From contig NZ_CP031513.1 in the NCBI RefSeq assembly GCF_003522965.1, positions 868,001 to 932,000 on the forward strand: a DNA stretch of 64,000 nt, read 5' to 3'. Below are positions 7,791 to 63,527 of this stretch, piece by piece. The stretch comes from Bombilactobacillus bombi. Lineage in GTDB: Bacteria; Bacillota; Bacilli; Lactobacillales; Lactobacillaceae. Made by a program: the position numbers and the translations under genes. Each line of letters begins with the position of its first letter. Position 1 is the first letter of the stretch. The notes below the pieces were generated by a model that searched no databases, was not told where the DNA came from, and saw only the letters and a list, made by a program, of their open reading frames with translations.

Positions 7791-8068
7791 AAAAAAACGC
7801 CCTTTTAGAATATTAATCTAAAAGGACGCCAAAACGCGGTACCACCTTCGTTACAGAATTGTTAATTCTGTCGCTCACGTACGCCTGCATTAATCAGGAT
7901 AACGTTCGCGCTATAAAGGGCGCACCCGCGTTACTCTCAGCGAATAACTTGCTCTAACTCAACTTTCATTAATAAGACGTTACACCTTCGCAGATAACGG
8001 TGCTCTCTGACAACCTCTTAATAACTACTCCTTAAATTATCTTAGCAATTTCTCATCTATGTTTAATG
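7791..8068 (-). promoter_or_regulatory. T-box leader upstream of oppA
   Basis: Read on the minus strand, AAGGTGGTACCGCG (about 7834-7847) is the canonical T-box antiterminator sequence; UGGU would pair with an ACCA tRNA end. It is preceded by a hairpin formed by ACAGAATT and AATTCTGT. It is followed by the competing terminator: stem 7798-7829, then T7. The 5' part has the GUUGUCAGAGAGC start typical of Stem I. The specifier codon cannot be fixed with confidence. GUU (Val), just before an A and UUCGC that can pair with an upstream GCGAA, is the best candidate. Confidence 0.9.
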
Positions 8069-8278: not shown

Positions 8279-8307
8279 TTGACACATTTAATTACTAATG
8301 TTTTAAT
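8279..8307 (+). promoter_or_regulatory. Promoter of the aromatic amino acid operon
   Basis: TTGACA (8279-8284), a 17-nt spacer and TTTAAT (8302-8307) with the extended -10 element TGT before it. Transcription should start near 8314, giving a leader of about 270 nt before the first structural gene. Confidence 0.8.
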
Positions 8308-8340
8308 GTAAACATAATTTATTGAGAAAGGAAGATTAAG

Positions 8341-8397
8341 ATGACTTGTTGTTTACTTAAGAAAGTTTATTATTTTGACTTTGCTTATTTTAAGTAG
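8341..8397 (+). CDS. Leader peptide rich in Tyr and Phe
   Basis: An 18-codon frame encoding MTCCLLKKVYYFDFAYFK, preceded by AAAGGAAG at good spacing and about 27 nt from the predicted transcription start. Residues 10-17 hold three Tyr and three Phe out of eight. Stalling there would cover 8376-8384, one arm of the first regulatory helix. It lies directly ahead of a Tyr/Phe biosynthetic operon. The peptide itself probably has no function beyond sensing charged tRNA-Tyr/tRNA-Phe. Bases 8334-8347, including its start codon, can pair with 8450-8463, so its own translation may also be gated. Confidence 0.78.
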   Translation: MTCCLLKKVYYFDFAYFK

Positions 8398-8525
8398 CGT
8401 TCGCATCATGAACTTAGATGCGAACGGTGCTTACGTTCGTGTCTAGGCAAAGTCATCTTGATCTTAGCCAATTAGACACGTTAGTCTAATTGGCAAGTAT
8501 AAATAACCATATTTATATAATATAT

Positions 8526-8573
8526 AAGCCAGTTAGATTATGATTATAGTCTAGCTGGCTTTTATTTATTTTA
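8526..8573 (+). terminator. Attenuator terminator before the MFS-AroQ gene
   Basis: The 16-bp stem 8526-8541/8546-8561, with two G-U pairs and loop GATT, is followed by TTTATTTATTTT. It ends just before the ribosome site of the first structural gene, so readthrough is required for operon expression. Confidence 0.88.
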
Positions 8574-8586
8574 AGGAGTGATTTGG

Positions 8587-10035
8587 ATGCATAAAAAGCA
8601 GTTATCATTTAGTTTATATCTTAATTATTTTGTACATGGCATCGGTATTATAATTTTAACCCAAAACATGCTGGCTTTAAGCCAGCATTGGCACTCTCCT
8701 CTTGCAACCGTGTCATATGTCATCTCTGGAATTGGGATTGGCAGATTTATCGCTTACTTTATTTTAGGCAATTTATCTGACCGCTTTGGCCGTAAAATTT
8801 TTGTTAATTTAGGAATGATTAGTTATTTAATTTTCTTTTTAGGGATGGCTTTTGTAACTAATATTAAGATTGCATATTTTTTGGCCATCTTGGCAGGTAT
8901 CGCTAATTCAGCGTTGGATGCTGGCACCTATACTACTTTTTTGGAAATGGGTGGTACTCAAGGATCTGCTAATGTTTTATTAAAGGCTTTTATTTCATCT
9001 GGCGAATTCTTATTGCCATTAGTGGTCGCTATGATTGAAGCTCAAAAGATGTGGTATGGCTGGTCCTTTATTCTAGCTGCCATAATTTTGGTTATTAACT
9101 TAGTTTTACTTAATCGGCAAAAATTTCCACCACGTAATCAAGCTAGTGAACGCGAAGCAAATATTATTAAGCAAATATCACCTATCAAAAAAATAATTGC
9201 TTCGATTGGCTTATCTGGATATGGCTATACTTCAATGGCTCTTATGATTTTATACACACAATGGATTAGTCTTTTCGCCACCAAAACTTTTCATTTTAAT
9301 TCCGTCTTAGCACATTGGCTGTTATCTTTATACAGTATTGGCTCTATCAGTGGTGTAATTATCATTTTTATTCTATTAAAAAGGACTGTTGCTGAAACCA
9401 AAATACTTATTTTCATGAATGTTGGCTCTCTACTAGCACTATTAATCATTTGTTACAGTCAGTTGGCGGGATTATCAATGCTAGCGGCGTTTGCTTTTGG
9501 TTTTACAGCTGCAGGTGGTGTATTACAAGTTGGTTTAAATCTCTTTGTTAAACTGTATCCGCAGATTAAAGGTCGCATCACCGGAATATATTTCACTTTC
9601 GGTAGCTTAGCATCGTTTACTATTCCGTTAATTACTGGATGGCTTTCTCAGCAAAGTATTGCTCAAGCAATGCGCTTTGATTTAGTAATTGGTTTAGTTG
9701 GATTATTATTAATAAGTATCACTAGCTGGGCAGTTTATACACCAAGCTCTTTAAATCACGAACGAAAACGAATTAACCAAATTGATCAACATATTATTCA
9801 CTTACTCAATCAACGTTTTGATACAGTTAAGGCAATTGGGAATTTAAAACAGCAGCAGCAACTGCCGATTTTAGATCAAGAACGGGAAAATGATATTTTA
9901 AATTTAGTTGCGCAAAAAAGCTGTCATCCAGAACATACACAGTATATGCAGATAATTTACCAATCGATTATGGCTAACTCACGTGCCTACCAACATAAAA
10001 ACCATTCAGATAAGGAGAATGTCAACAATGATTAA
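8587..10035 (+). CDS. MFS transporter fused to AroQ chorismate mutase
   Basis: 482 aa. Residues 1 to about 385 form a twelve-helix major facilitator with the MFS motif A-like GNLSDRFGRK between helices 2 and 3. Residues about 390-475 are an AroQ (type II) chorismate mutase domain. By hand alignment with the E. coli P-protein all active-site residues are present: Arg393, Arg410, Lys421, Asp430, Arg433, Glu434, Ser465 and Gln469. AroQ converts chorismate to prephenate. The frame is uninterrupted. The start at 8587 follows AAGGAG by 8 nt; a GTG nine bases upstream overlaps that site. It overlaps aroC by 8 nt and is first in the operon. The mutase should face the cytoplasm because MFS C-termini do. 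The transported substrate is unknown; shikimate, quinate or an aromatic acid would fit. Confidence 0.88.
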   Translation: MHKKQLSFSLYLNYFVHGIGIIILTQNMLALSQHWHSPLATVSYVISGIGIGRFIAYFILGNLSDRFGRKIFVNLGMISYLIFFLGMAFVTNIKIAYFLAILAGIANSALDAGTYTTFLEMGGTQGSANVLLKAFISSGEFLLPLVVAMIEAQKMWYGWSFILAAIILVINLVLLNRQKFPPRNQASEREANIIKQISPIKKIIASIGLSGYGYTSMALMILYTQWISLFATKTFHFNSVLAHWLLSLYSIGSISGVIIIFILLKRTVAETKILIFMNVGSLLALLIICYSQLAGLSMLAAFAFGFTAAGGVLQVGLNLFVKLYPQIKGRITGIYFTFGSLASFTIPLITGWLSQQSIAQAMRFDLVIGLVGLLLISITSWAVYTPSSLNHERKRINQIDQHIIHLLNQRFDTVKAIGNLKQQQQLPILDQERENDILNLVAQKSCHPEHTQYMQIIYQSIMANSRAYQHKNHSDKENVNND

Positions 10036-11197
10036 TTACATTACCGCCGGCGAATCACATGGTCCCCAATTAAGTGGGATTTTAACTAATATTCCAGCAG
10101 GTTTAACTTTAAATATTGACAATATTAATGCTGCATTAGCTGCTCGCCAAGGTGGCTTTGGTCGGGGAAGTCGCCAACAAATTGAACATGATACGGTTAT
10201 TATTACTGGCGGAGTTCGCCATGGCATTACTTTAGGAAGTCCAATTTCTTTAACAATTAAAAATCGAGATCATGCACATTGGTCAAAAATTATGGATCCT
10301 TTAACTTCTCCTACAGCAAATAATACTCTGCGTAAAGTCACACGCCCGCGCCCCGGACATGCAGATTTAGTTGGAGGTATGAAATATGGTCACCGTGACT
10401 TACGTAATGTATTAGAGCGTTCTTCGGCCCGTGAAACTGCCATGCGCGTTGCAATTGGGCAAATATGTAAGCAATTATTAGCACAATTAGATATCCAATT
10501 AATTGGTTATGTTCAACAGGTTGGTCCTATTTCTACCAACGAGGACACTACTTTAACTATACAACAACTACAACAAGAAATAATTAAAAATGATTTGCGT
10601 ATTCCTGACCAACAATTAGTAGATAAAATTCATGATTTAATTATCGCTACTAAAAAAGCTGGTGATACTTTGGGAGGAGTTGTACGAGTTGTTGCTGAAA
10701 ATGTACCAGCTGGCTTAGGCAGTTACACCAATTGGGACACTAAATTGGATGCTCAACTAGCTGCTGCTGTTATGGGAGTAAATGCCATTAAGGGAGTTGA
10801 AATTGGCGATGGTTTTACGGCAGCTAGTCATTATGGAAGTGAAGTTATGGATGAAATTGATTGGGAGGCTGAAACTGGTTGGACTCGTTTATCTAATCAT
10901 TTAGGAGGATTTGAAGGTGGTATGACTAATGGTATGCCTATTATTGTCAAAGCAGCCATGAAACCTATTCCGACTTTGTATAAACCACTCCAAAGTGTTG
11001 ATATTCAAACTAAGATTAAGCAAAAAGCTAATGTGGAACGCTCAGATACTACGGCTATTGTGCCAGCTTCTTTAGTCGTTGAAAGTGTTGTTGCTATCGA
11101 ACTAGCAAAAGCAATTACTGCTACTTTTGATGGTAGTAACTTATCTCGATTACAAAAAGCAATTGCTGATTATCGTCAAGAACTAAATAATTATTAA
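10028..11197 (+). CDS. aroC: Chorismate synthase
   Basis: Converts 5-enolpyruvylshikimate-3-phosphate (EPSP) to chorismate with reduced FMN, the last common step of aromatic biosynthesis. 389 aa, normal length. Motifs are GESHG near the start, RPGHADL, the signature ERSSARETAMRVA and GGFEGGMTNG. The start ATG at 10028 follows AAGGAG and begins inside the last codons of the MFS-AroQ gene (8-nt overlap), suggesting translational coupling. Its product is the substrate of the fused chorismate mutase just upstream. Confidence 0.97.
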   Translation: MINYITAGESHGPQLSGILTNIPAGLTLNIDNINAALAARQGGFGRGSRQQIEHDTVIITGGVRHGITLGSPISLTIKNRDHAHWSKIMDPLTSPTANNTLRKVTRPRPGHADLVGGMKYGHRDLRNVLERSSARETAMRVAIGQICKQLLAQLDIQLIGYVQQVGPISTNEDTTLTIQQLQQEIIKNDLRIPDQQLVDKIHDLIIATKKAGDTLGGVVRVVAENVPAGLGSYTNWDTKLDAQLAAAVMGVNAIKGVEIGDGFTAASHYGSEVMDEIDWEAETGWTRLSNHLGGFEGGMTNGMPIIVKAAMKPIPTLYKPLQSVDIQTKIKQKANVERSDTTAIVPASLVVESVVAIELAKAITATFDGSNLSRLQKAIADYRQELNNY

Positions 11198-11210: not shown

Positions 11211-11738
11211 ATGATTATTCATACTTTAGGACCTGAGGCTACTGATAGTTATGCGGCAGCACAAATTTATAACCATCAACATTATGCTGATCAAGCCCAA
11301 ATTGTTGGACATCCCAGTTTTGAATCTTTATTAAGTAATTTAACAGCTTATTCGCAAGATTATTTATTAATACCTGCAGCTTTTAAATCAACAATTTTCA
11401 AAGCTAGTTGGGGAGATATTCACTACGCCTTATTAGAAAAAATAGATTTAATGGACTGCTTTATAACTAAGTTAGATCCGCTAGTCGTTATTAAAAGACT
11501 TAACGCGGATAATCGCATCGGCTATACTCATGCGGCAACTGCACAATTGCTCACCCGTATTGTCAAAAACGTGGAAGTACAAACTGTTGCGAGTAAATAT
11601 TTAGCCTATCAAGCTTATCAGCTTAACCAAGCAGGCTATGTCTTAACCAACATTAAAAATGTCCAAATAACCCAGCATGAACAAATTATTAAACGTTTGA
11701 CACCATCAATGGTATGGTGCGTCTATCAAATTAGTTAG
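11211..11738 (+). CDS. BacA-like / prephenate dehydratase-like protein without ACT domain
   Basis: 175 aa. It begins with the TLGPEAT segment typical of the prephenate dehydratase fold, followed by HPSFESLL and LLIPAAF, which resemble the matching parts of bacilysin protein BacA (a prephenate decarboxylase). It is much shorter than PheA (about 280 aa). It has no C-terminal ACT domain and no TRF motif of dehydratases; BacA also lacks both. Its place between aroC and aroA suggests it acts on prephenate. It may be the Phe-branch dehydratase of this organism or a BacA-type decarboxylase; sequence alone does not decide. A good AGGAG site precedes the ATG. Confidence 0.7.
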   Translation: MIIHTLGPEATDSYAAAQIYNHQHYADQAQIVGHPSFESLLSNLTAYSQDYLLIPAAFKSTIFKASWGDIHYALLEKIDLMDCFITKLDPLVVIKRLNADNRIGYTHAATAQLLTRIVKNVEVQTVASKYLAYQAYQLNQAGYVLTNIKNVQITQHEQIIKRLTPSMVWCVYQIS

Positions 11739-11746
11739 GTGATTAT

Positions 11747-13054
11747 ATGATAAATTTACAGAGTCAACCACGTTATGGATTACACGGAGCCCTCAATATT
11801 CCAGGTGATAAAAGTATTTCTCATCGCGCCTTAATTATTGGGGCTTTGAGCCATGGTACCACTCATTTAGAACATTTCTTACAAGCAGAAGACTGTTTAT
11901 CAACACTATCTGCTCTCCAAGCTTTAGGAGTACCTATTACTCATGAGAAAGAGACTGTAACTATTCACGGTCAAGGCTTAGCTGGTTTAACAGCACCCAA
12001 ACATGCTCTAAATATGGGAAATTCAGGTACGACTACTCGTTTGCTTACCGGTGTCTTAGCAGGGCAAGCATTTACTACTACTTTAATAGGAGATTCCTCT
12101 TTAAGTCAACGCCCTATGGAACGGGTTCGTCATCCCCTCAACCAAATGGGAGCCCATATAAACCTCACAGCGGGTCATTTACCTATGACAATTAGCGGCC
12201 AAAACTTGCATGCGATTACTTACCAAATGCCAGTCGCAAGTGCGCAAGTCAAAAGTGCAATAATTTTGGGTGCATTACAAGCTCAAGGTCCTAGTACAAT
12301 TGTTGAATTACTACCGACTCGTGATCATACTGAAAGACTTCTCCAAATTTTTGGTGCTGACATTCAGACAGCTCAAGATAAACGAACAATTACCATTCAA
12401 CCTCAACCACAGTTAGCTGCTCAAGACTTAATTATTCCCGGTGATATGTCTTCGGCTGCTTTCTTTATTACTGCAGCTAGCATTGTGCCCAATTCTCATA
12501 TTAAATTAACTAAAATAAATTTGAATCCAACACGTACTGGTCTCTTGTCTGTTTTAAAACGCATGGGAGGAAATATTCATCTTACAGCACTGGGGCAAAT
12601 TGCCGGCGAACCGGTTGGTGATATTGACGTTGAAGCTGCAACTTTAAAACCAATTCAACTAACAGCCACAGATATTCCCGCCATCATTGATGAGTTGCCC
12701 TTAGTCGCTCTATTAGCCGCTAGTGCTAATGGCATCAGCAAAATCAGCGGAGCCAGTGAACTGCGAGTTAAGGAAACTGATCGAATTGCTTGCATTACTA
12801 GCGAATTACAAAAGCTAGGCATCAATATTAAAGAATTGCCCGATGGTTTTCTCATTGATGGTCGTACTGCTTGGTCTGTCCGTAATCAACAATTAGACAG
12901 CCACAAAGATCATCGTATCGGGATGATGCTAGCCATCGCAGCTTTAAAAATAACAACTCCATTAAAATTAAACCATGCCAGTGCCATCAATATTTCTTAT
13001 CCCACATTTTTCCAAGATTTACAGGAATTACTGACGAAGGAGACATCATCATGA
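11747..13054 (+). CDS. aroA: 3-phosphoshikimate 1-carboxyvinyltransferase (EPSP synthase)
   Basis: Joins shikimate-3-phosphate and PEP to give EPSP. 435 aa. Substrate-binding motifs: PGDKSISHRALI near residue 20, NMGNSGTTTRL around 90, SQRPMERV, LPTRDHTE, ELRVKETDRI and DHRIGM near the C-terminus. The two-domain length is normal. Overlaps tyrA by 4 nt (ATGA), so translation is likely coupled. Confidence 0.97.
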   Translation: MINLQSQPRYGLHGALNIPGDKSISHRALIIGALSHGTTHLEHFLQAEDCLSTLSALQALGVPITHEKETVTIHGQGLAGLTAPKHALNMGNSGTTTRLLTGVLAGQAFTTTLIGDSSLSQRPMERVRHPLNQMGAHINLTAGHLPMTISGQNLHAITYQMPVASAQVKSAIILGALQAQGPSTIVELLPTRDHTERLLQIFGADIQTAQDKRTITIQPQPQLAAQDLIIPGDMSSAAFFITAASIVPNSHIKLTKINLNPTRTGLLSVLKRMGGNIHLTALGQIAGEPVGDIDVEAATLKPIQLTATDIPAIIDELPLVALLAASANGISKISGASELRVKETDRIACITSELQKLGINIKELPDGFLIDGRTAWSVRNQQLDSHKDHRIGMMLAIAALKITTPLKLNHASAINISYPTFFQDLQELLTKETSS

Positions 13055-14148
13055 CAAAAGTTTTAATTAAAGGATTAGGTTTAATTGGTAGTTCTTTAGC
13101 TTTAGCTATTAAACAAGCACATCCAACTATAACTTTAATTGGTTGTGACATCGATGCTGCTAGTCTGAGTTATGCCCAACAGCAAAACATCATTGATATA
13201 TCTACGACTGATTTCAGCACTGCCGCTCCGCAAGCCGATGTGATTATCTTAGCTAGTCCAGTCAATATAATTATCAAAGACTTGCAGCTATTAGCAACCC
13301 TGACCTTAAAACCACATGTCCTCATCACTGATGTAGGCAGTACCAAACAAACAATTGTAAAAGCTGCAAAACCCTTGCAGCAACAAGGGATTGCCTTTAT
13401 TGGTGGTCACCCAATGGCAGGTTCACATAAATCAGGAGTTACTGCTGGTCGAATTGATTTATTTGAAAACGCGTTTTATTTTTTAGTACCTCAATTAACC
13501 TCTCCGCAGATTATTGCTCAACTTCAAGACTTACTAAGTGCTACTCATGTGAAATGGTTAACCGTAACGCCACAGCAACATGATCGAATTGTAGGTCAAC
13601 TAAGTCATCTACCCCATATTGTTGCTGCGGGTTTAGTTAATGAAACTCAAACTACCCTTCAAAATTCTCCCCTAGGTTTACGCTTAGCGGCTGGCGGATT
13701 TAAAACTCTTACTCGCATTGCTAGTTCTGATCCTACTATGTGGACAACAATCTTACTAGAAAATGCGCCTTTGATTAGCGCCCAACTCCAAGATTATATT
13801 GCTGCATTATCCCAAATTCAAACTGACTTAAAAAACCTAAATAAACCAGCCATTGAGCAATTCTTTACCAATGCTAAGATTACTCGTGATCACTTAGGTC
13901 CACAACAATTAGGTAGTCTCCCTAATTTTTTTGATTTATTTCTTAATATTCCAGATCAAGTAGGAGCAATTGCTGATGTTACGCAACTGCTAGCAAAAGG
14001 TCACATTAATTTAGTCAATATTCATATTTTAGAAGTTCGTGAAGATATTGATGGTGTTTTACAATTAACATTTGACAACGCCAAAAATCAACAACAAGCA
14101 GCTAATTTATTACGTGCTGCCAATTATCAAATTATCAGGAGGAATTAA
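13051..14148 (+). CDS. tyrA: Prephenate dehydrogenase with ACT domain
   Basis: Oxidatively decarboxylates prephenate to 4-hydroxyphenylpyruvate for Tyr. 365 aa. The N-terminal NAD-binding loop GLGLIGSSLA is at residues 8-17, GGHPMAGSHKSG lies in the active site, and HLPHIVAAGL carries a conserved His. A C-terminal ACT domain starting near residue 295 (IPDQVGAIADV) suggests feedback control by Tyr. AAGGAG precedes the start. Coupled to aroA upstream by an ATGA overlap and to aroK downstream by a 1-nt gap. Confidence 0.96.
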   Translation: MTKVLIKGLGLIGSSLALAIKQAHPTITLIGCDIDAASLSYAQQQNIIDISTTDFSTAAPQADVIILASPVNIIIKDLQLLATLTLKPHVLITDVGSTKQTIVKAAKPLQQQGIAFIGGHPMAGSHKSGVTAGRIDLFENAFYFLVPQLTSPQIIAQLQDLLSATHVKWLTVTPQQHDRIVGQLSHLPHIVAAGLVNETQTTLQNSPLGLRLAAGGFKTLTRIASSDPTMWTTILLENAPLISAQLQDYIAALSQIQTDLKNLNKPAIEQFFTNAKITRDHLGPQQLGSLPNFFDLFLNIPDQVGAIADVTQLLAKGHINLVNIHILEVREDIDGVLQLTFDNAKNQQQAANLLRAANYQIIRRN

Positions 14149-14149
14149 G

Positions 14150-14650
14150 ATGCAAGCAATTCTAGTCGGATTTATGGGCAGTGGTAAAACTACCATCGGC
14201 AGTTTATTAGCGCAACAATTAAAGACTCAACATTACGATTTAGATGACTTAATCGTCCAACAAGCAGGCCGCAGTATTACGGAGATTTTCGCCCAAAGTG
14301 GCGAAGAATATTTTCGTCATTTAGAGCAACAAACACTCAGTCAAGCTTTAACTAATAAGGGTATTTTATCTACTGGTGGCGGTACACCAACTATTGCCCC
14401 AAATGCTGCAGTACTCAAAGCTAGCTCAACACCTGTTATCTGGCTCACTGCAAAAGATCAAACGATTTTAGAACGTGTCACGCAAGATCAAAGCCGCCCG
14501 TTAGTTAATGATTTAGATCAAAACTCTTTATTACAGTTAAAACAAAAGCGGGAAACATTATATGCTGCAGTCGCTGATTTAACAATCAACACTGATTATC
14601 TAACACCTTTACAAATTGTTCAAAAAATCCAAGAATGGTTAACCAATTAA
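14150..14650 (+). CDS. aroK: Shikimate kinase
   Basis: Phosphorylates shikimate with ATP. 166 aa. Walker A GFMGSGKTT at residues 8-16, DLDDLI of the shikimate-binding region, STGGGTP, and RPLV of the lid. The start at 14150 follows AGGAGG directly after the tyrA stop; an upstream in-frame extension inside tyrA is not needed. Last gene of the operon, 12 nt from the convergent response regulator. DAHP synthase, aroB, aroD and aroE are absent here, so the operon covers only the shikimate-to-prephenate/Tyr part. Confidence 0.96.
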   Translation: MQAILVGFMGSGKTTIGSLLAQQLKTQHYDLDDLIVQQAGRSITEIFAQSGEEYFRHLEQQTLSQALTNKGILSTGGGTPTIAPNAAVLKASSTPVIWLTAKDQTILERVTQDQSRPLVNDLDQNSLLQLKQKRETLYAAVADLTINTDYLTPLQIVQKIQEWLTN

Positions 14651-63474: not shown

Positions 63475-63481
63475 AATATTA

Positions 63482-63520
63482 CTTCCTTAGTTTTTTTAAA
63501 TGGGATTTTGCGAACCATTC
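63482..63520 (-). promoter_or_regulatory. preQ1-I riboswitch
   Basis: Minus strand: AATGG, loop TTCGCAAAATC, CCATT, then the A-rich tail TTAAAAAAACTAAGGAAG, in which AAGGA is the ribosome site of queT. This is the preQ1-I pseudoknot layout and suggests translational control. Confidence 0.9.
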
Positions 63521-63527
63521 ACTGTTT

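Follow-up and report, generated by a model that had tools for sequence, protein, structure and literature searches.

A probable Tyr/Phe leader-peptide attenuator of the Bombilactobacillus bombi aromatic operon and its relatives in the Lactobacillales

The aromatic operon found in a 64,000-nucleotide stretch of the Bombilactobacillus bombi genome (the window, to which all coordinates refer) is very probably controlled by a ribosome-mediated transcription attenuator, in which translation of a leader peptide senses charged tRNA-Tyr and tRNA-Phe and a relay of helices that exclude one another passes the signal on to the operon. Its peptide, its helices, their mutual exclusion and the agreement of its codons with the downstream genes are established by sequence and comparison. 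The first-pass annotation had read the region as attenuation of the trp/phe type, which is supported by conservation of the peptide and of the helices and by the tracking of the codons with the genes. This kind of mechanism was already known; the order-wide family, the exchangeable codons and the long relay are new as far as the literature searched is concerned. The whole case is built on sequence comparison and folding, and equilibrium folding backs the switch only in part.

Leader and aromatic operon

The promoter (8279-8307, forward strand), read from the sequence, combines a -35 TTGACA (8279-8284), a 17-nt spacer and a -10 TTTAAT (8302-8307) preceded by TGT; the motif TGnTTTAA(T/A) is kept in 24 of 25 homologous leaders. 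A consensus promoter scan of the window did not list it because the second hexamer has a T at position 2. The ribosome binding site AAAGGAAG (8327-8334), likewise read from the sequence, precedes an ORF of 18 codons (8341-8397) that runs from the ATG at 8341 to the TAG at 8395-8397. Its predicted translation product, MTCCLLKKVYYFDFAYFK, ends in YYFDFAYFK, and six of the eight residues of the regulatory stretch YYFDFAYF (8368-8391) are Tyr or Phe, the products of the pathway coded downstream. The intrinsic terminator (8526-8573) has arms at 8526-8538 and 8549-8561 followed by a U-rich tail, and a terminator scan reports the site 8526-8561 with the tail TTATTTATTT. The promoter, the 18-codon peptide and the terminator that had been annotated upstream of the aromatic genes are therefore all present in the sequence. 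The in silico folding proposed at that stage, run on 8314-8575, gives -96.8 kcal/mol versus -48.9 (sd 4.2) for 200 dinucleotide shuffles (z -11.4), none of which folds as low. Rfam matches near the leader (TPP, trpB, Qrr and others) score far below their cut-offs and were rejected as chance.

The first structural gene (8587-10035) codes a fusion of an MFS transporter (PF07690) and a type II chorismate mutase (PF01817). It is followed on the same strand by aroC (chorismate synthase, 10028-11197), a divergent prephenate dehydratase-like (PDT-like) gene (11211-11738), aroA (EPSP synthase, 11747-13054), tyrA (prephenate dehydrogenase, 13051-14148) and aroK (shikimate kinase, 14147-14650). In several other loci (L117, L125 and L128, for example) a small separate chorismate mutase gene lies downstream of the transporter gene.

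Outside the attenuator, the divergent gene coding a family-5 solute-binding protein has a T-box leader (7819-8052, minus strand), as stated in the first-pass annotation; the RF00230 match has 91.2 bits (E 2.2e-20), just under the gathering score of 93 bits. On the leader's own strand the T-box model has no match. The B. bombi genome (one 1.84-Mb contig) has 19 T-box matches at E <= 0.001, six of them above the cut-off, and T-boxes therefore coexist there with the leader-peptide device. A second leader of the family in this genome, MLKLQIRQLNAYYYFRFFR (L111, C1:1799308-1799452, minus strand), precedes a PLP aminotransferase gene; a pair of leaders resembling this own-genome pair was also noted at L347. 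A PreQ1 riboswitch (44.8 bits) is located at 63481-63524 of the window, minus strand.

Helix relay and ribosome position

Seven alternating helices form a relay between the peptide and the terminator, with three mutually exclusive switches in succession. Segment S1 (8376-8384) lies inside the peptide codons and pairs with S5 (8447-8455); a stretch overlapping S5 can alternatively pair with the leader start region. S2 (8398-8407), directly after the stop codon, pairs with positions 8417-8426 of S3 (8416-8426), which can pair instead with 8434-8444 of S4 (8434-8445). Positions 8439-8445 of S4 are complementary to 8473-8479 of S6 (8468-8479), the other partner of which is S7 (8484-8493, through 8485-8493). 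S7 pairs either with S6 or, as antiterminator, with 8529-8538 of S8, the first arm of the terminator helix S8:S9. As every segment pairs with an earlier or a later one, S2:S3 frees S4, S4:S6 frees S7 and S7:S8 frees S9; when S3:S4 forms instead, S6 is freed, and so onward to the terminator. By complementarity and covariation, an antiterminator and an intrinsic terminator that exclude each other are thus placed between the ORF and the first gene. The three helices named in the first-pass annotation exist, as does its terminator, and are redefined here as 8376-8384/8447-8455, 8468-8476/8485-8493 and 8484-8493/8529-8538; the chain is longer than was then described, for it lacked the linking helices 8398-8407/8417-8426, 8416-8426/8434-8444 and 8439-8445/8473-8479.

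The helices recur in relatives with compensatory changes, which is the covariation that had been suggested as a check. Alignment A1 holds 25 leaders (23 from the named loci described below, the window and L023). An unsupervised scan of all its column pairs for runs of at least five mostly paired columns yielded 25 entries; when these are ordered by their compensatory changes, S8:S9, S3:S4, S2:S3, S6:S7 and S7:S8 take the first to fifth places, S1:S5 the ninth and S4:S6 the thirteenth, so that all seven helices are listed. Pairings that the model lacks are listed too, among them S6 with S9 and S7 with S9, as expected from the resemblance of S6 to S8 and of S7 to S9. In A1 the termination fold (S1:S5, S3:S4, S6:S7, S8:S9) has 93.7 percent of its cells paired and both-side changes in 19 of 42 pairs, and no shuffle reaches it in any of five measures. 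The antitermination fold (S2:S3, S4:S6, S7:S8) has 95.1 percent of cells paired and both-side changes in 8 of 27 pairs, with two of the five shuffle measures weak, as 25 and 182 shuffles out of 500 reach the observed value. Alignment A4 comprises 102 more diverse matches and was made with a model in which S2:S3 and S4:S6 are absent. Both-side changes are found there in 26 of 29 pairs of S1:S5, S3:S4 and S6:S7 and in 12 of 17 pairs of S2:S3 and S4:S6, and no shuffle is as high for either set in any measure. Over 184 rows, mean duplex energies of native versus swapped segments (kcal/mol) are -9.3 versus -7.0 for S1:S5, -10.8 versus -7.9 for S2:S3, -15.4 versus -11.7 for S3:S4 and -11.1 versus -8.2 for S4:S6.

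From this arrangement we infer where the ribosome stalls, the order of folding and the response to Tyr and Phe. When both amino acids are ample the ribosome would reach the stop codon and cover S2, so that S3:S4, S6:S7 and S8:S9 would form and transcription would end. When Tyr or Phe is scarce it would wait on codons 10-16, covering S1 and leaving S2 uncovered; formation of S2:S3 would then lead to S4:S6 and S7:S8, with S9 left alone and read-through as the outcome. A ribosome still before the Tyr codons would allow S1:S5 to form, which would keep S6:S7. Leaders free of ribosomes would adopt the S6:S7 state, in the window by way of the start region paired with S5.

These states were examined with a mask that keeps every base unpaired up to 12 bases past the point where the A-site codon begins, on a transcript whose last segment is S8; the S7:S8 value is a sum and can exceed 1. 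In the window, an A site at any of codons 9-16 gives a predicted S7:S8 of 0.98-1.06; the value is 0.63 at F17 and at most 0.01 at K18 or the stop codon. For an A site at codons 6-8 the prediction is formation of S1:S5, with S7:S8 at most 0.08. For the 25 species, mean S7:S8 is 0.45-0.46 at the Tyr codons versus 0.21 at the stop; with the upstream region masked, the rise from stop to Tyr codons exceeds 0.2 in 10 of 25 and a fall is found in none. With the start region left free, the rise is seen in 3 of 25 and the reverse in none; if the upstream part is left unoccupied, equilibrium folding fails to recover the switch in most species. The window then loses the effect, its start region being paired with S5 at -22.1 kcal/mol (mean of this duplex across leaders -12.1 native versus -9.6 swapped).

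When S2:S3 is imposed, mean S7:S8 is 0.76 and S6:S7 0.15; S7:S8 does not beat S6:S7 in L023, L064, L067 and L073, and both are low in L068. A ribosome at the stop gives means of 0.21 for S7:S8 and 0.81 for S6:S7, with S7:S8 above S6:S7, contrary to the model, in L054, L055, L059, L065 and L066 and near ties in L069 and L072. With no ribosome the means are 0.98 for S6:S7, 0.92 for S3:S4 and 0.10 for S1:S5, and termination is therefore the predicted default. In the window S6:S7 reaches 1.00 in this state even with S2:S3 at 0.86, since S5 is taken up by the start region. We read this start-region pairing in the folding model as a putative lock that reinforces the termination default.

Spread of the family and codon specificity

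A search with the first structural gene led to 24 loci in named species of Lactiplantibacillus, Levilactobacillus, Bombilactobacillus, Liquorilactobacillus and Ligilactobacillus and in one Sporolactobacillus. The Tyr/Phe run, on the conservation of which the first-pass reading depended, is present in 23 of the 24, where an RBS-led ORF within 700 bases upstream has four or more Tyr/Phe among eight residues. Most peptides follow the pattern YY(Y/F)-G-(F/L)-x-YF-R-stop with variations. Only Liquorilactobacillus cacaonum (L070) lacks a recognisable peptide there; by eye its sequence gives YCYGFVCSK, in a frame that reads on.

Three covariance models, whose E-values are rough, were used to follow the leader further. 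In the window's family, R1 (window-type leader) has matches at E <= 0.01 in at least 194 of 397 genomes; at E <= 0.001 it matches 41 of 295 genomes of the order and 5 of the 348 in a class sample, and four of these five lie in the window's order, B. bombi included. R2, built from 88 matches, finds at E <= 0.001 at least 176 of 295 order genomes (about 60 percent) and at least 57 of 75 genera; in a 199-genome phylum sample the window's own genome is the only one among its matches. Both models span the codon region and so favour Tyr/Phe leaders. R3 was built only from the bases after the stop codon (64 members), is blind to the peptide and finds at least 159 of 246 order genomes and at least 52 of 65 genera. 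Outside the order and inside the class, Sporolactobacillus vineae (L068; order Caryophanales) and G763 (L177) have the leader, in both cases before an MFS gene of the window's kind. These matches indicate that the attenuator belongs to a family present in most of the sampled genera of the order Lactobacillales.

The next gene was read for 228 leaders (189 + 39), among which some species are met twice and which include the window and 10 of the 23 named-locus leaders. A leader was classed as Tyr/Phe type when at least three of its last 12 residues are Tyr or Phe. Gene labels come from Pfam/NCBIfam for representatives and from BLAST clusters or N-termini judged by eye for the rest, and the labelled gene is occasionally separated from the leader, as at L212, where aroF lies 966 bases off. 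Of 201 leaders that precede aromatic-pathway, NhaC-like or TrpX-like genes, 200 are of the Tyr/Phe type; these counts and those given below for the other types do not equal independent events because the genomes are related and R1/R2 favour Tyr/Phe codons. The Tyr/Phe type includes all 60 leaders before MFS or chorismate mutase genes, all 40 before aroE, 83 of 84 before TrpX-like solute-binding proteins, all four before NhaC-like antiporters (three of them without Phe in the last nine residues) and one or two cases each before aroA, aroC, aroF, aroK, aminotransferases and pheA. The lone TrpX-like leader counted as branched-chain (L372) was set aside, as the wrong ORF had been scored; the other frame reads MHHLTTLLNGFFGFFR.

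Ile/Leu/Val leaders (PLIISIIR, NLLLISVIR and ATIISIIR are examples) precede ilvA, ilvB, ilvE and livJ-like genes in 14 of 14 cases, all under a single family label (f5). Their S1 pairs at a mean of -8.0 kcal/mol with its own S5 and at -5.4 with the aromatic S5, so that S1 and S5 co-vary. Cys leaders (L129, L402, L403) all come from a single genus label (g26): NCCCTCC precedes a binding protein whose best NCBIfam match, below the cut-off, is a cystine one, NTCCCCTCYM precedes an M20 amidohydrolase gene and AAYCTCTR stands at a contig end. The regulatory codons thus match the downstream genes.

R3 also brought in Trp leaders, from six genomes that have two R2 matches each: NSWQNWRR, NSWRNWRR, TWQSWRR, LWQSWQN, NRWQGWHR and AWQNWRRW, the last with a weak start (L445 is noted as the weak-start leader). 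All six precede PF04392 binding proteins and they fall under three family labels. In L445, L446, L447 and L448 the S6:S7 helix is itself followed by a T run, a feature absent from L444 and L449; in these four the relay is two segments shorter and its parity is kept. An outside check is provided by the NCBIfam TrpX model NF041285 (cut-off 390 bits), which was made independently of the leaders. The proteins behind the Trp leaders score 433, 462, 475, 463, 467 and 352 bits, five of six passing, versus none of 21 behind Tyr/Phe leaders (253 to 373 bits; L192 and 20 hand-picked across families). The leader codons and the protein family therefore agree on which copies are Trp transporters. The L451 protein scores 412 bits on this model, and its ambiguous leader, FYWHSHME, holds one Trp. 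TrpX-like copies behind Tyr/Phe leaders are predicted from their codons to be Tyr or Phe carriers. In G076 and G079, neighbouring TrpX-like ABC copies have Phe-only and Tyr-rich leaders (L356 and L343/L373), an arrangement that suggests separate Phe and Tyr transporters.

The product of the PDT-like gene is nearly invisible to Pfam (PF00800, E 0.023), and a profile search of its family versus PDB sequences gave chance matches only. Its AlphaFold model (mean pLDDT 96.1) has prephenate dehydratases as the three best Foldseek matches (TM by query about 0.5) and as the top three in VIA-align (Z 10.7, 10.2 and 10.0; rmsd 5.3-6.1; 154-163 aligned), ahead of a putative chorismate mutase (Z 8.7) and then binding proteins. 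As the fold is common, these matches support a prephenate dehydratase identity without proving it. When the PDT-like gene is the first one downstream, the last nine residues of the leader are devoid of Tyr (5 of 5 versus 0 of 100 before MFS/chorismate mutase and aroE genes), and the leaders thus predict that it serves Phe.

Alternative readings and related systems

A riboswitch, in which the leader RNA would directly bind free Tyr or Phe or a pathway precursor, as has been proposed for two Streptococcus agalactiae elements, is very unlikely here, even if the strong and conserved leader structure would suit it. Those elements, gbs1262 and gbs2033, are described in PMC4448216 as conserved in Lactobacillales and located before paralogous ABC operons, with premature termination seen by RNA-seq; a similar sequence precedes Enterococcus faecium aroFBC-tyrA, and the authors took the elements for aromatic riboswitches. 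The specificity of the present family appears to lie in the codons and not in a conserved RNA pocket: the RNA after the stop codon is described by one model, R3, across aromatic, ilv/liv, TrpX and Cys genes, and it is the codons that change. Moreover, an RBS-led ORF ends -4 to +9 bases from the start of the R3 match in 54 of 76 loci, many of them already known members or leaders used to build R3, versus 53 of 1520 random positions. In 17 of the 22 misses an FSYF-type run is found with no stop there; similar leaders elsewhere read on for about three codons. The term "leader peptide" has no occurrence in PMC4448216; judged from their context, and not from their sequences, gbs1262 and gbs2033 probably belong to the present family.

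Arrest of a nascent chain that senses the free amino acid in the exit tunnel, in the manner of TnaC, would account for the apparent conservation of the Gly before the second aromatic group and of the final Arg, the last residue in 124 of 189 leaders. In the 25 A1 leaders, however, the Gly is coded by GGC in 22 of 22 and the Arg by AGG in 18 of 19, which is what RNA pairing, more than a choice of residue, would produce; peptide conservation outside the sensing codons thus looks to be at the nucleotide level. Across the family the sensing positions may be occupied by Tyr, Phe, Trp, Ile, Leu, Val or Cys; at the third of them, A1 has Tyr or Phe in 22 leaders, by four kinds of codon, Leu in two and Trp in one. 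The pattern points to conservation of the RNA at Gly and Arg and of the amino acid class at the sensing codons, and nascent-chain arrest is very unlikely.

A stand-alone trans-acting sRNA with an incidental peptide, as implied by the Rfam entry RF02863 sRNA_2410 ("Enterococcus sRNA 2410"), is extremely unlikely: a terminated transcript of roughly 260 nt would result and RF02863 matches five of the 16 loci scanned, at the leader (L160, L165, L166, L168 and L178; the window leader does not reach the gathering threshold), but nearly every locus read has the element just upstream of an amino acid gene, and the RF02863 model begins at UUAGCUACUUUAGAUAG, the last leader codons, so that the Rfam unit, filed as an sRNA, cuts off the ORF.

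Ribosome-mediated leader-peptide attenuation, retained as the preferred reading, is known from Escherichia coli trpL and pheL, the models of the trp/phe type. The present family shares with them a short ORF rich in codons for the product amino acid, an antiterminator and a terminator that exclude each other, and termination predicted without translation; unlike these leaders, which have one switch, it has three in succession, and the likeness drawn here is one of mechanism. T-box leaders respond to tRNA charging. A response to tRNA charge is likewise proposed here, for a leader with no T-box match on its strand.

The first-pass annotation had placed the classic cases in Proteobacteria and Actinobacteria, with T-boxes as the normal device of Bacillota; leader-peptide attenuation is not so confined. 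The relevant passages give experimental support for the leader peptides of Listeria Rli60 ilv, first predicted as a riboswitch or sRNA (PMC5864092), and of Staphylococcus aureus ilv (PMC5794164), and a prediction for hisS/hisZ of bacilli (PMC2965389); a uORF before aroF has been proposed in Acholeplasma. The two ilv systems are, like the present family, leader-peptide attenuators of Bacillota, concern branched-chain amino acids and one operon each, and resemble it by mechanism. A putative attenuator before the Lactiplantibacillus plantarum operon ORF>aroG>ORF>aroF>tyrA>aroE is listed in Table 7 of a 2005 study (PMC1173090). By gene order, with an equation of gene names that is our own, this operon is of the window's type, and the passages concerned give neither a sensing peptide nor a mechanism. 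Among the loci analysed here, one from an L. plantarum strain (L050) carries the homologous leader. No description of the present family as leader peptides was found in the open-access literature searched.

It is likely that the Lactobacillales have an order-wide class of homologous leader-peptide attenuators, a counterpart of the T-box, built on one RNA relay with a codon cassette that was adapted to Tyr, Phe, Trp, Ile/Leu/Val or Cys and an S5 that changed in step. If so, this class would replace the aromatic-riboswitch and sRNA readings of parts of it, and its codons would tell what the downstream transporters and enzymes handle, such as Phe, Tyr or Trp for TrpX-like proteins, or the role of the divergent prephenate dehydratase. 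Lactic acid bacteria are known for their use of T-boxes, and the presence in this order of a second reader of tRNA charge, itself a homologous system, would alter the annotation of amino acid control in food, gut and pathogenic species. The natural recoding with its compensating RNA changes would offer ready sequences for studying how leader-peptide specificity evolves, and the relay raises the question of folding order across three switches. The leader codons would also provide a readable substrate prediction for poorly assigned transporters and enzymes.

Some leaders were noted before genes of other kinds. Aromatic-rich ones precede PTS EIIC-like membrane proteins at L360 (PF13303) and L440 (by reading), and leaders ending in VYFSYFR (L348) and MYFSYFR (L350) precede DASS/CitMHS-like transporters, the family having been searched for L348. 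The leader of L361, IIIFFVLM, precedes an ApbA-type gene.
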